DNA of 64,000 bases, from contig VGCE01000001.1 of NCBI GenBank assembly GCA_016870155.1, positions 186,001-250,000 on the forward strand, read 5' to 3'. The DNA comes from Actinomycetota bacterium. Its GTDB lineage: Bacteria; Actinomycetota; Thermoleophilia; Miltoncostaeales; Miltoncostaeaceae. Positions 19,775 to 44,949 of this stretch are shown in pieces. A program made the position numbers and the translations under genes. How positions within the stretch are numbered: the stretch's first letter is position 1; every line of letters begins with the position of its first letter. The notes beneath the pieces were generated by a model. It saw nothing but the letters and a program-made list of their open reading frames with translations, was not told the DNA's origin and did no database searches.

Positions 19775-21469
19775 ATGAGCACGATTCCTGCCGAGTACCC
19801 GCCGCGACACCGTCCGTCCGACTACGTCATCGCCCCGGAGGCGGGCGAGGACGAATACATCGAGGTCGGCGTCCTCTTCGTCGGCGCAGGCCCGGCCGGC
19901 CTGGCCGGCGCGATTCGCCTGGGCCAGCTGATGGCCGAGGACGAAGAGCTGATGGAGGCGCTCGGCGAGGTGCCGATCGCCATCGTCGAGAAGGGCAAGG
20001 GCCCCGGCTCGCACCTGCTGTCGGGGTCGGTCATGCGCCCCGGACCCTTCAAGTCGCTCTTCCCGGACGCCGCGCCCGGCGAGACCCCCGGCGTGTTCGA
20101 GGAGGTCCACAAGGAGTCGGTGTACTTCCTGCGCAAGGGCTCGAAGATCCGCATCCCCACCCCGCCGTTCCTCCACAACGACGGCAACTGGGTCGTGTCG
20201 ATCAGCCAGCTCTCGCGCTTCATGGCCGAGCAGGCGGAGGAGTTCGGGGCCTACATGCTCCCCGAGACCGATGCCCAGCAGTTGCTGGTGCAGGACGGCC
20301 GCGTGGTGGGCGTGAAGACGGGCGACAAGGGTCGCGGCCGCGAGGGCGAGGAGCTCTCCACCTTCGAGCCGGGCGTCGAGCTGCGCGCGAAGGTCACCGT
20401 CATCTGCGAGGGCACCCAGGGCCACCTGGCCGGCGTTCTGCGCAAGCACTTCGAGCTCGACCAGGACACCACGCAGATCTACGAGATCGGCGTGAAGGAG
20501 GTCTGGGAGGTCGACAAGCCGCTCGACCGCGTCATCCACACCATCGGCTGGCCCCTGCGCATGGGCGCGAAGTGGCGCGAGTACGGCGGCACGTGGATGT
20601 ACCCCATGGGCGGCAACATGGTCTCGATCGGCATGGTCGTGGGCCTCGACGCCCTCGACGCCAACATCTCGGTGCACGACCTGCTGCAGCAGGCGAAGAC
20701 GCACCCCCTCTTCAGGGGCGTTCTCGAGGGCGGCCGTCGCGTCGCGTGGGGAGCCAAGACGCTCCCCGCCGGCGGCATCTACGGCCTGCCCAGCCGCTTC
20801 CACGTGCCGGGCGCGGTGCTGTGCGGAGACTCCGCGGGCTTCCTCAACGCCGCGGCGCTCAAGGGCGTCAGCTACGCCATGAAGTCCGGCATCATCGCCG
20901 CCGAGCAGGTGGCCGAGTCGATCAAGGACGGCACGGTGGAGGAGACCACCGGCCTCTGGAACTACGACGAGGCCATCAAGGACTCCGAGGTGTGGAAGGA
21001 CCTCTGGAAGGTCCGTAACTTCCGCCCCTCGTACCAGAAGGGCTTTATCTACGGCGGCATGGTCACCGGCATGATGGTGGCGACCGGGGGCAAGCTGCCG
21101 AAGCAGGTCAGCATCAAGGCCGATAAGGACGAGCCGGTCAGCATCGGCCCGGACCGCGACTACCCGAAGGCCGACGGCGAGTACATCTTCGACAAGCTGT
21201 CGTCGGTGTTCCTCAGCGGCAACAAGACCCGCGACGACCAGCCGAACCACATCCGCATCCGCACCGACGTGCCCAAGGAACTCGCGGTGGCCTGGGAGAG
21301 CATGTGCCCGGCCAAGGTCTACGAGATCGTGGATGGCTCCGAGAACAACGGCACGGTGCACGTGCGCATGAATAACCCGAACTGCATCCAGTGCGGCGCC
21401 ATCACCGCCAAGGGCGGCCAGCTGACGCCGCCCGAGGGTGGCAGCGGGCCCGAGTACACGCTCACCTAG
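19775..21469 (+). CDS. Electron-transfer flavoprotein:ubiquinone/menaquinone oxidoreductase
   Basis: A 564-residue flavoprotein that passes electrons from ETF to the quinone pool. It has the FAD loop VLFVGAGPAGLAGAIRL (about residue 32), the SGSVMRPG segment, YPMGGNMVSIGMVVGLD, the second FAD block LCGDSAGFLNAAALKGVSYAMKSG split at its natural Gly, and a C-terminal iron-sulfur domain. Cluster ligands normally are C-x(n)-C-x2-C-x2-C. Here Cys511 (MCPAKVYE), Cys537 and Cys540 (NCIQC) are present, but residue 543 is Ile in CGAITAK, so one [4Fe-4S] ligand is missing. Length and all other blocks are normal. No ETF genes are nearby. It starts after the tRNA-Ala terminator and ends convergent with the carbonic anhydrase gene. 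Confidence 0.92.
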   Translation: MSTIPAEYPPRHRPSDYVIAPEAGEDEYIEVGVLFVGAGPAGLAGAIRLGQLMAEDEELMEALGEVPIAIVEKGKGPGSHLLSGSVMRPGPFKSLFPDAAPGETPGVFEEVHKESVYFLRKGSKIRIPTPPFLHNDGNWVVSISQLSRFMAEQAEEFGAYMLPETDAQQLLVQDGRVVGVKTGDKGRGREGEELSTFEPGVELRAKVTVICEGTQGHLAGVLRKHFELDQDTTQIYEIGVKEVWEVDKPLDRVIHTIGWPLRMGAKWREYGGTWMYPMGGNMVSIGMVVGLDALDANISVHDLLQQAKTHPLFRGVLEGGRRVAWGAKTLPAGGIYGLPSRFHVPGAVLCGDSAGFLNAAALKGVSYAMKSGIIAAEQVAESIKDGTVEETTGLWNYDEAIKDSEVWKDLWKVRNFRPSYQKGFIYGGMVTGMMVATGGKLPKQVSIKADKDEPVSIGPDRDYPKADGEYIFDKLSSVFLSGNKTRDDQPNHIRIRTDVPKELAVAWESMCPAKVYEIVDGSENNGTVHVRMNNPNCIQCGAITAKGGQLTPPEGGSGPEYTLT

Positions 21470-22671: not shown

Positions 22672-22695
22672 TTCCATTCCGGGGGAGGAGGACCT

Positions 22696-23961
22696 CTGCT
22701 CGACCTGCGCCTGATACGCCGTGACCCCGATCTCGTGCGCGCCGCCCTCGCGCGCCGGGGTGACGCCACCGCTCTCGATGATGTGCTGGCCCTTGATGCC
22801 GACTGCCGCGGCCTGCGCGCCGCTGTGGAGGAGCGCCGGGCCGAGGGCGCCCGCATGGCCAAGGAGATCGGCGCCCTCAAGAAGCAGGGGCATGATGTGC
22901 CGCCTGAGCATGAGGCCGCCGCCCGCGCCCTGCGGGAGCAGACCTCCGCAGACGAGGAGGGGCTGCGCGAGGCCGAGGCCCGGCGCGACGCCCTCATGCT
23001 CGCGCTGCCCAACATCGCCGAGGACGCCGCCCCGGACGGCGGCGAAGAGGATGCCCTGGAGATCCGCCTCGTGGGCGATATCCCGGTGTTCCCGAATGGC
23101 GCGAAGGACCACGTAGAGCTCGCCGCGGGCTTCGGCGGCCTTGACCTCGAGCGCGCCGCCCGCACGTCGGGAGCACGCTTCGCATACCTGATGGGTCCTC
23201 TCGTGCGCGTGCAGATGGCACTGGTGTCGTGGGCGGTGGATGTCGTGTCGTCCGAGGGCTTCACGCCGGTCATCCCGCCGGTGCTGGTGCGCGAGGAGGC
23301 GCTGGTGGGCACGGGGTTCTTCCCGGCCGACCGGTCCGCCGTATACGCCACCGCGGATGACGACCTCTACCTGGTGGGCACATCCGAGGTGCCGCTCGCG
23401 GCGCTGCACCAGGACGAGATCATCGATGAGGCCGACCTGCCCCTCCGCTACGCGGGCATCTCGTCATGCTTCCGGCGCGAGGCCGGGGCCGCGGGTCGCG
23501 ACACCCACGGCATCTTCCGCGTGCATCAATTCGACAAGGTGGAGATGTTCTCGTTCACCACGCCCGAGGAGTCCGCGGCGGAGCACCTGGGAATCCTCGG
23601 CATCGAGGAGCGCATCCTGCAGGATCTGGGGATCCCGTACCGCGTGGTGGACGTCGCGGTGGGTGATCTCGGGGCATCGGCGGCACGCAAGTTCGACTGC
23701 GAGGCCTGGATGCCCGGGCAGGACCGCTACCGCGAGGTCACCTCGTGCTCGAACTGCACCGACTACCAGGCGCGGCGTCTCAAGGCGCGCACCAGGCGTG
23801 GCAGGGAGACCATTCCGGTGCATACGCTCAATGGCACGGCGGTGGCCGTGGGCCGAACCCTCATCGCCATCCTCGAGAACCACCAGCGGCCCGATGGCAC
23901 GGTCGCGGTGCCGGAGTGCCTCAGGGCGTACGGAGCGCCCGAGGTGCTGGGCCCGGCCTGA
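22696..23961 (+). CDS. serS: Seryl-tRNA synthetase, probable CTG start
   Basis: A 421-residue class II synthetase that charges tRNA-Ser. It begins with LLDLRLIRRDPDLVRAALARR (first residue Met if CTG initiates), exactly matching the usual MLDxRxIRxxPDxVR opening. An antiparallel coiled-coil arm spans about residues 30-100. Motif 2 is SSCFRREAGAAGRDTHGIFR, motif 3 TAVAVGRTLIAILEN. No ATG, GTG or TTG occurs near the conserved start. CTG 22696 follows GGGGGAGGAGGACCT, an excellent ribosome binding site. The only conventional in-frame start nearby, ATG 22627, would require translating through the cytochrome terminator hairpin and adds 23 non-conserved residues. Two bases separate the stop from the kinase gene. 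Confidence 0.93.
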   Translation: MLDLRLIRRDPDLVRAALARRGDATALDDVLALDADCRGLRAAVEERRAEGARMAKEIGALKKQGHDVPPEHEAAARALREQTSADEEGLREAEARRDALMLALPNIAEDAAPDGGEEDALEIRLVGDIPVFPNGAKDHVELAAGFGGLDLERAARTSGARFAYLMGPLVRVQMALVSWAVDVVSSEGFTPVIPPVLVREEALVGTGFFPADRSAVYATADDDLYLVGTSEVPLAALHQDEIIDEADLPLRYAGISSCFRREAGAAGRDTHGIFRVHQFDKVEMFSFTTPEESAAEHLGILGIEERILQDLGIPYRVVDVAVGDLGASAARKFDCEAWMPGQDRYREVTSCSNCTDYQARRLKARTRRGRETIPVHTLNGTAVAVGRTLIAILENHQRPDGTVAVPECLRAYGAPEVLGPA

Positions 23962-28669: not shown

Positions 28670-30007
28670 ATGAGCACCGGGCTGCAGGTCGTGCTCCTGC
28701 TGCTGCTCGTGGGGTGGACCGCCTTCTTCGTGGCGGCCGAATACGCCTTCATCGCCGCGCGGCCCACGCGCATGCGCGAGCTGACGGAGGCCGGCAGCAA
28801 GCGGGCCGCGCGCGTGGTGGCGATCCAGGAGAACCCGACCCGGTTCATCTCCGCGATCCAGGTGGCCATCACCTTCAGCGGCCTTGCCATCGGTGCGGTC
28901 GGCGAGCCCGCCGTGCGCGGGCTCGTGCAGGACGTCTTCGGCCCGCTCACCTCGTCGCTGGGCCAGGGCCTCGTCACCGTGCTCAGCGTGATCATCGGCT
29001 TCGCCATCATCATCGCCATCACGGTGGTGCTGGGGGAGATTGTGCCCAAGGCGCTCACGCTGGCTCGCACGGAGGGCGTCGCGCTCGTGGTGGTGGGCCC
29101 CGTGCGGGTGTTCACCGCCATCGTCTACCCGTTCGTGTGGCTGCTTGAGCGCCTCTCGGCAGTAACGCTGCGCCTGTTCGGGCTTCGGGGGGACATCCAC
29201 CTCGGGCGTGGGCACACGGAGGAGGAACTCCGGATGATCCTCGCGGCCTCGTATGAGGAGGGGGTGCTCGAGGCGGAGGAGTCGGAGATGCTCGACCGGG
29301 TGTTCGACTTCGCCGACACCGAGGTGCGACAGGTGATGGTGCCCCGCCCCGACGTGGTGATGCTTCCCATCACCTCAACCGTGTCCGAGGCGGCCGCCCT
29401 CGTGGATGAGCACCCCTACACCCGCTACCCCGTGTACGGAGACGACCAGGACGACATCCGCGGCGTCATCCACATCCGCCAGCTGTTCGAGGCCATCACG
29501 GCGGGGGACCTCGACATGTGGATCGATGACCTGGTGCGCGACGTCCAGCGGGTTCCGGAGACCAAGAACCTCGACGACCTGCTGCGTGACTTCCGGCGCA
29601 CCAAGAGCCACCTGGCCGTGGTGGTTGATGAGTACGGGTCGCTGGCAGGCGTGGTAACGCTGGAGGACCTCATCGAGGAGGTCATGGGCGAGATCGAGGA
29701 TGAATTCGATGTGCCCGAGCGGGACATCGTGCGCACCGGGGGAGGGCAGGCGTTGGTAGCCGGTTCGGTGCCGCTCGACGACTTCAACGAGGTATTCGGC
29801 ACACAGATCGACGACGAGGACTTCAACACGGTGGGCGGCGCGGTTTTCCACGGCATGGGACGTGTTCCCGACGTGGGCGATGTGGTGGAGGCGCACGGCC
29901 TCGTGTTCACGGTGCTCGAGCTCGATGGATCGCGCATCCTGCGCGTGAGGGTCGATCCCGTGCAGGCCGACAGCATTCGCGAGGGCGCAGCCGACCCCGG
30001 CGAGTAG
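28670..30007 (+). CDS. CNNM/CorC-type membrane protein with CBS domains (hemolysin family)
   Basis: A 445-residue protein in three parts. Residues 1-190 form a DUF21/CNNM membrane domain (helices starting at LQVVLLLLLVGWTAFFVAAEY, then two to three more, with a VLGEIVPKALTLAR signature). Residues 205-325 hold two CBS domains (VMVPRPDVVMLP; AVVVDEYGSLAGVVTLEDLIEE cut between the two blocks). Residues 345-430 form a CorC_HlyC transporter-associated domain (GTQIDDEDFNTVGG). Relatives export Mg2+ or Co2+ and sense nucleotides through CBS. The old name hemolysin C is misleading. The 210 bases upstream hold no gene. Confidence 0.93.
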   Translation: MSTGLQVVLLLLLVGWTAFFVAAEYAFIAARPTRMRELTEAGSKRAARVVAIQENPTRFISAIQVAITFSGLAIGAVGEPAVRGLVQDVFGPLTSSLGQGLVTVLSVIIGFAIIIAITVVLGEIVPKALTLARTEGVALVVVGPVRVFTAIVYPFVWLLERLSAVTLRLFGLRGDIHLGRGHTEEELRMILAASYEEGVLEAEESEMLDRVFDFADTEVRQVMVPRPDVVMLPITSTVSEAAALVDEHPYTRYPVYGDDQDDIRGVIHIRQLFEAITAGDLDMWIDDLVRDVQRVPETKNLDDLLRDFRRTKSHLAVVVDEYGSLAGVVTLEDLIEEVMGEIEDEFDVPERDIVRTGGGQALVAGSVPLDDFNEVFGTQIDDEDFNTVGGAVFHGMGRVPDVGDVVEAHGLVFTVLELDGSRILRVRVDPVQADSIREGAADPGE

Positions 30008-44233: not shown

Positions 44234-44587
44234 ATGGCCGTCCACGCTCTCCCCGCCCCTGTGCGGGTCCACATGCTCAGCCCGCTCACCTTCAATGACG
44301 CCCAGGAGATCGGCGACCAGGTGAAGGCGGGATCCCCGGTGTTCCTTGACCTGCGCTCGGTTGACCGCGAGCTCGAGGAGCGCCTGCGCGACTTCTGCGC
44401 CGGCCTGGCAGCCGCCCTCGAGGGCTCGGTGAACGACGTCGCCCAGGGCATCGTCTTCATCGCGCCGCACGGCGTCAGCGTGTCCCGCGGCGAGGTGCAG
44501 TCGCATGCGCCCTCATCGCACCGTGACTCCTACTATGACGCCATGGACGCCGATGTCATGCCGCTGTTCAGGAGTATGTCCGCCTGA
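44234..44587 (+). CDS. SepF-like cell division protein (second copy)
   Basis: A 117-residue DUF552/SepF-domain protein: VHMLSPLTFNDAQEIGDQVK, then SPVFLDLRSVDRELEERLRDF and a VNDVAQGIVFIAPHGVSVS block corresponding to the FLLTP strand. It has no N-terminal amphipathic membrane-targeting helix of the full-length SepF and a short polar C-terminal tail. SepF tethers FtsZ to the membrane. The housekeeping copy is at 63623-64000; this one is shorter and lies with a Usp gene and a DCC oxidoreductase, its stop overlapping the latter's start. GGAGGG precedes the ATG. Confidence 0.83.
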   Translation: MAVHALPAPVRVHMLSPLTFNDAQEIGDQVKAGSPVFLDLRSVDRELEERLRDFCAGLAAALEGSVNDVAQGIVFIAPHGVSVSRGEVQSHAPSSHRDSYYDAMDADVMPLFRSMSA

Positions 44588-44949
44588 CCCCGTCCCTGCA
44601 GCCGCTGGTCGTCATCTATGACGGCGACTGCAGGTTCTGCCGTGCCTTTGCCCAGATCGCCCGGCGGGTCGCCCGCCCGCCGGGCATCAGGCTCCTCCCC
44701 TTCGACGACCCGCGCGCGGCGCGCATCCTTGAGGTCGTGCCCGAGGAGGTGCGGCATATGTCCGTGCACGCCGCTGACTCCCGGGGCCTGGCGTCGGCCA
44801 CCGAGGCCTTCCGGCTGATACTCACGCGCCTTCGCGGCGGACGGTTGCTGCTCGCCACCGGCGTGCATCGCGTCTACCCCGTGGTGGCGCGCAACCGCAG
44901 CCTGATCGGGCGCTTCGTGCCCGACCTCCCGCGGCCTCCGGTCGCCTAG
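44584..44949 (+). CDS. DCC-family thiol-disulfide oxidoreductase (DUF393), probable CTG start
   Basis: A 121-residue protein of the DCC family, named for its YDGDCRFC motif, here at residues 12-19 (Cys16 and Cys19), followed by LLPFDDPRAARI and the HRVYPVVARNRSLIGRFV end. It likely forms a small thioredoxin-like fold with a redox-active C-x2-C. The first ATG in frame (44737) lies well past the CxxC motif. CTG 44584 overlaps the sepF-like stop in a CTGA arrangement and is preceded by AGGAG nine bases upstream, so a CTG start with translational coupling fits best. Other CTGs at 44596 and 44605 are less well placed. Confidence 0.82.
   Translation: MTPSLQPLVVIYDGDCRFCRAFAQIARRVARPPGIRLLPFDDPRAARILEVVPEEVRHMSVHAADSRGLASATEAFRLILTRLRGGRLLLATGVHRVYPVVARNRSLIGRFVPDLPRPPVA

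Follow-up and report, generated by a model that had tools for sequence, protein, structure and literature searches.

The gene for a DCC1-like thiol-disulfide oxidoreductase that follows a sepF-like gene in an uncultured aquatic bacterium is very probably translated from a CTG codon, by reinitiation after sepF, and comparative analysis suggests that CTG serves repeatedly and heritably as a start codon within the genus and is selectively kept at this gene. The genus lies within the order Miltoncostaeales of the Thermoleophilia. The source genome (G000) is a draft of 16 contigs (1.81 Mb, 97.8% complete, 71% GC), and the window, the 64,000-nucleotide stretch to which the coordinates below refer unless a contig is named, lies on contig 1.

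The sepF-like gene (44234..44587, plus strand) starts with ATG, has GCC TGA as its last codons and scores 62.6 bits against the SepF domain profile PF04472 (Pfam cut-off 27). The DCC1-like gene behind it (44584..44949, plus strand) scores 40.5 bits against PF04134 (cut-off 27.8) over profile positions 1–111 of 113, and its CxxC lies near the N-terminus in the active-site motif YDGDCRFC (44617..44640, plus strand). A universal stress protein is encoded upstream of the pair, with a ferritin on the opposite strand (both Pfam assignments). The DCC frame runs from an upstream in-frame stop at 44536-44538 to 44949 and contains no ATG or GTG, as the original prediction held, and no TTG ahead of the GTG at 44737..44739 (plus strand). 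This earliest canonical start is codon 52; relatives do not conserve it as a start, and it opens an ORF of only 70 amino acids that begins beyond both cysteines. The proposed alternative was likewise reproduced in its coordinates: a CTG at 44584-44586 overlaps the sepF stop at 44585-44587, the two sharing TG within a CTGA at 44584..44587, and a Shine-Dalgarno (SD)-like AGGAG lies within sepF codons at 44570..44574 (plus strand), separated from the CTG by 9 nucleotides and with duplex energies of -5.5 to -6.9. Read from this CTG, the gene comprises 121 codons plus the stop, and the predicted N-terminus is (M)TPSLQPLVVIYDGDCR.

The arrangement is best appreciated by comparison across the 15 genomes of the genus that carry the gene, a set that includes the source genome; the relatives are MAGs found by sequence, under the labels Miltoncostaeales or Thermoleophilia, and they share ancestry, so that genomes are not to be counted as independent events. 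In all 15, a CTG stands exactly 33 nucleotides before YDG(D/N)CRFC and overlaps the sepF TGA, giving the conserved stop-start overlap expected of a coupled gene pair, and in all 15 the protein measured from this codon has a length of 121 codons. No canonical start occurs within the first nine codons in 13 of the genomes, and in 12 there is no ATG, GTG or TTG before the motif that is compatible with the conserved N-terminus. The AGGAG is only partly conserved, with four of the 15 genomes having neither AGGAG nor GGAG. Variable columns of the alignment fall at codon positions 1, 2 and 3 in the ratio 76/49/118, a pattern that indicates a protein under purifying selection. Outside the genus, the nearest two relatives compared do not have the DCC gene behind sepF, and there it starts with ATG or GTG. 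Homologues starting at ATG elsewhere, which would have counted against the original prediction, were found in part only: in two relatives an ATG lies three codons downstream of the CTG, yet the CTG is kept in both. Some members of the genus are titled Bifidobacterium breve or Acidobacteria in public MAG records and are evidently mislabelled.

It is worth considering whether the CTG is simply a by-product of the way sepF ends, with the real DCC start elsewhere, either at a near-cognate codon (CTG at codon 5 or 8, ATC at codon 10 or 11) or at whichever canonical codon is nearest in each genome. All genomes compared end sepF with GCC TGA, GCC is the commonest alanine codon, and two relatives do have an ATG at codon 4. 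We nonetheless regard this explanation as unlikely, since none of these codons is shared by all 15 genomes: the codon 5 CTG is found in nine, the codon 8 CTG in eight, and the first canonical codon wanders from codon 4 to codon 83, with later canonical codons falling beyond the CxxC in most genomes. The CTG at codon 1 is the only candidate common to the whole set. Moreover, GCG, GCA or GCT in place of GCC would leave the sepF alanine intact while turning the DCC start into GTG, ATG or TTG, respectively. Among the 34 four-fold-degenerate sites of sepF and DCC at which the amino acid is invariant, the C of the CTG is the one that shows zero changes on the tree; the remaining 33 show 1–7 changes each (mean 3.6), and every other alanine column varies at its third base. 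Alanine codons before TGA vary freely across the genome (GCC 82, GCA 75, GCG 57), so the invariance of GCC in sepF does not reflect a rule of stop context. Because every synonymous change at this position would create a canonical start and none has occurred, the CTG itself, and with it its weakness, seems to be kept by selection; the evidence is modest, as the test rests on one site and the empirical chance of the result is about 1 in 34. The proposal that the DCC gene starts at this CTG and is coupled to sepF thus gains support from the comparison.

Two further explanations carry much less weight. In most genomes some 15 codons ahead of the CTG are also open in the DCC frame, and a -1 ribosomal frameshift near the sepF stop could join the two frames into a SepF-DCC fusion protein. 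This is very improbable, given that the aligned junctions display no visible conserved slippery heptamer, that the CTG starts of rplJ and serS described below have no such partner gene, and that related genera have a separate DCC gene with an ATG or GTG start and no sepF upstream; a +1 frameshift of the prfB type was rejected as requiring the wrong frame. Hardly conceivable is a DCC gene that is 5′-truncated and decaying or has lost its start through an assembly error. Although the window does come from a draft genome of 16 contigs, 15 separately assembled genomes agree with one another, and the constant length of 121 codons and the purifying substitution pattern exclude the 5′-truncated pseudogene that had been raised as a danger to the original prediction.

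CTG starts appear to recur in the genus, in several essential genes. In the source genome, serS (serine–tRNA ligase; 22696..23961, plus strand) scores 434 bits with TIGR00414 (NCBIfam) when read from CTG, its residue 2 aligning to profile position 2. The CTG at 22696 is preceded by GGAGGAGGA and follows a strong SD in a purine-rich region (GGGGGAGGAGGACCT, 22681..22695, plus strand; duplex -11.3). The serS start is CTG in eight genomes and GTG at the same codon in eight others. For rplJ, which encodes L10, the start is CTG in 18 of 19 genomes and ATA in G008, and the CTG lies after a very strong SD, GAGGAGGTGAGGAA (also given as gaggaggtgaggaa). Both dnaJ and rarA have CTG in at least eight genomes, the counts being lower bounds from exact-pattern matching. 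For def and for a GNAT gene, CTG in the source genome corresponds to GTG in its sister G008, and SD-led CTG codons within CTGA overlaps also occur at ribAB and at a probable metX. Exchange between CTG and a canonical start is therefore seen at serS, def and the GNAT gene; at the DCC gene there is none, the CTG being invariant in the 15 genomes.

Several additional features were recorded at these and other loci. Second serS loci occur in G012 and G004, and the second copy in G012, which has GTG, resembles that of G001 and G006, suggesting mixed bins. At rplJ, the overlap is ATAG in G008 (ATA with TAG) and CTGA in the 18 others; in both cases a stop overlaps a near-cognate start, with the same other frame. 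A mini-ORF there (GTG AGG AAC TGA) is unlikely to be a coupling partner, as its GTG coincides with the SD, and a search for an L10 leader family at rplJ gave no Rfam match. An SD conserved ahead of infC (caggagggg) precedes a CTG that opens a nine-codon frame, whose terminal TAG overlaps the infC GTG start; this frame, seen on contig C2 of G000 near 96,811 (minus strand) and on contig C3 of G008 near 102,749, could encode a leader peptide. An alpha/beta-hydrolase-like gene on contig C12 of G000 (scan position 28787, minus strand) has ATA as its sole SD-placed start (aggaggtgacccc-ATA), and more ATA, ATC and ATT start candidates were listed.

The genome-wide scan for SD-led CTG that had been suggested as a check was carried out in G000 by locating codons where coding usage turns on, with no ATG, GTG or TTG within 10 codons, and scoring them for an SD. 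CTG codons at such boundaries are SD-led in 21 of 171 cases (12.3%; 6.7 expected, p=4.5e-6), a 3-fold enrichment over the base rate of 3.9% for all other codons; the rates for ATG, GTG and TTG are 22.8%, 13.2% and 20% (7/35), and CTC is SD-led in 4/168. Subtraction of the background leaves about 14 CTG cases, compared with about 68 for ATG, 34 for GTG and 6 for TTG. In a test that partly overlaps this one, candidate overlaps of the -4 type without a nearby canonical start had C before TGA in 17/388 cases, versus 9/718 for TAG and TAA stops (p=0.0014). These results claim counts above expectation, and not every individual entry is real: candidates h14 (which lies within an epimerase), h17, h22 and h29 were judged false or unclear. 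The tests covered G000 and half of G008, both inside the genus; the scanned half of G008 showed neither an overall CTG excess nor a CTGA excess, and the use of CTG may thus vary within the genus. Together with rplJ, serS, dnaJ, rarA and def, the enrichment in G000 supports the suggestion that CTG initiation is used repeatedly in this genome.

Other approaches were set aside. Extension of protein-level alignments proved unsuitable as a sign of upstream starts, as overlapping upstream genes yield conserved out-of-frame translations, and codon-position tests were used instead. Counting first starts only within alignments produced many false cases (smpB, for example), direct tabulation of start substitutions was too noisy and mainly recovered serS, and counts of SDs by codon that did not exclude neighbouring starts were distorted by second codons, AGC for instance.

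The initiation machinery of the source genome, whose inspection had also been proposed, appears ordinary. The initiator tRNA (G000:C3:104606-104679) has a CAU anticodon and the usual GGG/CCC anticodon stem, which led us to reject a special initiator tRNA, and IF3 is present as a full-length ORF of ordinary length (IF3_C, 123 bits). Accordingly, neither a relaxed initiator tRNA nor a missing IF3 was found in the source genome, nor was a dedicated CUG initiator tRNA; 16S was looked for in the assembly and not found. There are four CAT tRNAs in all, two of them similar elongator types 2 kb apart (G000:C3:17899-17972 and 20048-20121), one with a mispaired D-stem.

It is informative to examine these observations in light of known systems. 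Proteogenomics of Deinococcus deserti reportedly revealed several starts other than ATG, GTG or TTG in one genome. CTG initiation is known in bacteria, as a very rare event, and what would be new here is its conserved use across a genus; the literature searched, which covered few subscription papers, held no description of a CTG-started rplJ or of recurrent CTG starts in Miltoncostaeales. In termination-reinitiation at ATGA, post-termination ribosomes can move by one base and use the overlapping codon (Huber et al. 2019, PMC6728339), and the sepF-DCC pair resembles the systems described there in its 4-nucleotide stop/start overlap, frame relation and co-directed neighbours. It differs in having CTG rather than ATG, and a search of that paper's text gave no CTG, GTGA or TTGA. 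Starts switched to CUG have been counted in 2 of 61,358 AUG and 1 of 5,080 GUG cases (PMC5622118), although counts of this type depend on annotations in which CTG is seldom permitted. As in those rare cases, CUG takes the place of AUG, GUG or UUG; unlike them, the present examples involve several essential genes in one genus and are conserved across species. In E. coli, initiation complexes formed on CUG are unstable (PMC11497404). In a selection in M. smegmatis with an SD, CTG barely initiated (0.03%) and was not enriched (PMC4633059). The present genus shares with mycobacteria its high GC content, actinobacterial affiliation and many GTG starts, but differs in that CTG is apparently used.

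From the sequence patterns we infer the following course of events. A ribosome that terminates sepF at the TGA would move back one base and reinitiate on the overlapping CTG with the ordinary fMet initiator tRNA, the weak SD inside sepF assisting in some species. A weak CTG in this position would make DCC synthesis low and dependent on SepF, and selection probably retains it for that reason, since it limits DCC output and couples it strictly to SepF. The genus as a whole would use CTG in two settings: in CTGA overlaps (dnaJ, rarA, ribAB, def and DCC) and after strong SDs (rplJ and serS). At rplJ, where a very strong SD precedes the weak start, we speculate that this start may serve L10 control, by analogy with the weak AUU that controls infC in E. 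coli. A broader proposal, to which we give somewhat less than even credence, is that CTG is a regular fourth start codon in the genus, at least as frequent as TTG and retained in essential genes as the species diverged, and that at CTGA overlaps and rplJ selection favours it over ATG, GTG and TTG, so that a near-cognate start would hold coupled or autoregulated translation at a heritably low level.

Common gene finders accept only ATG, GTG and TTG as starts, and so in these genomes they would shorten or overlook genes such as rplJ, serS, dnaJ, rarA, def and ribAB. The CTG of rplJ in 18 of 19 genomes and the non-drifting CTG of the DCC gene offer a clear, testable case for selection maintaining weak start codons. 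They also raise the question of how CUG initiation is possible in this actinobacterial lineage with an initiator tRNA and IF3 that look ordinary, when CUG hardly works in mycobacteria.
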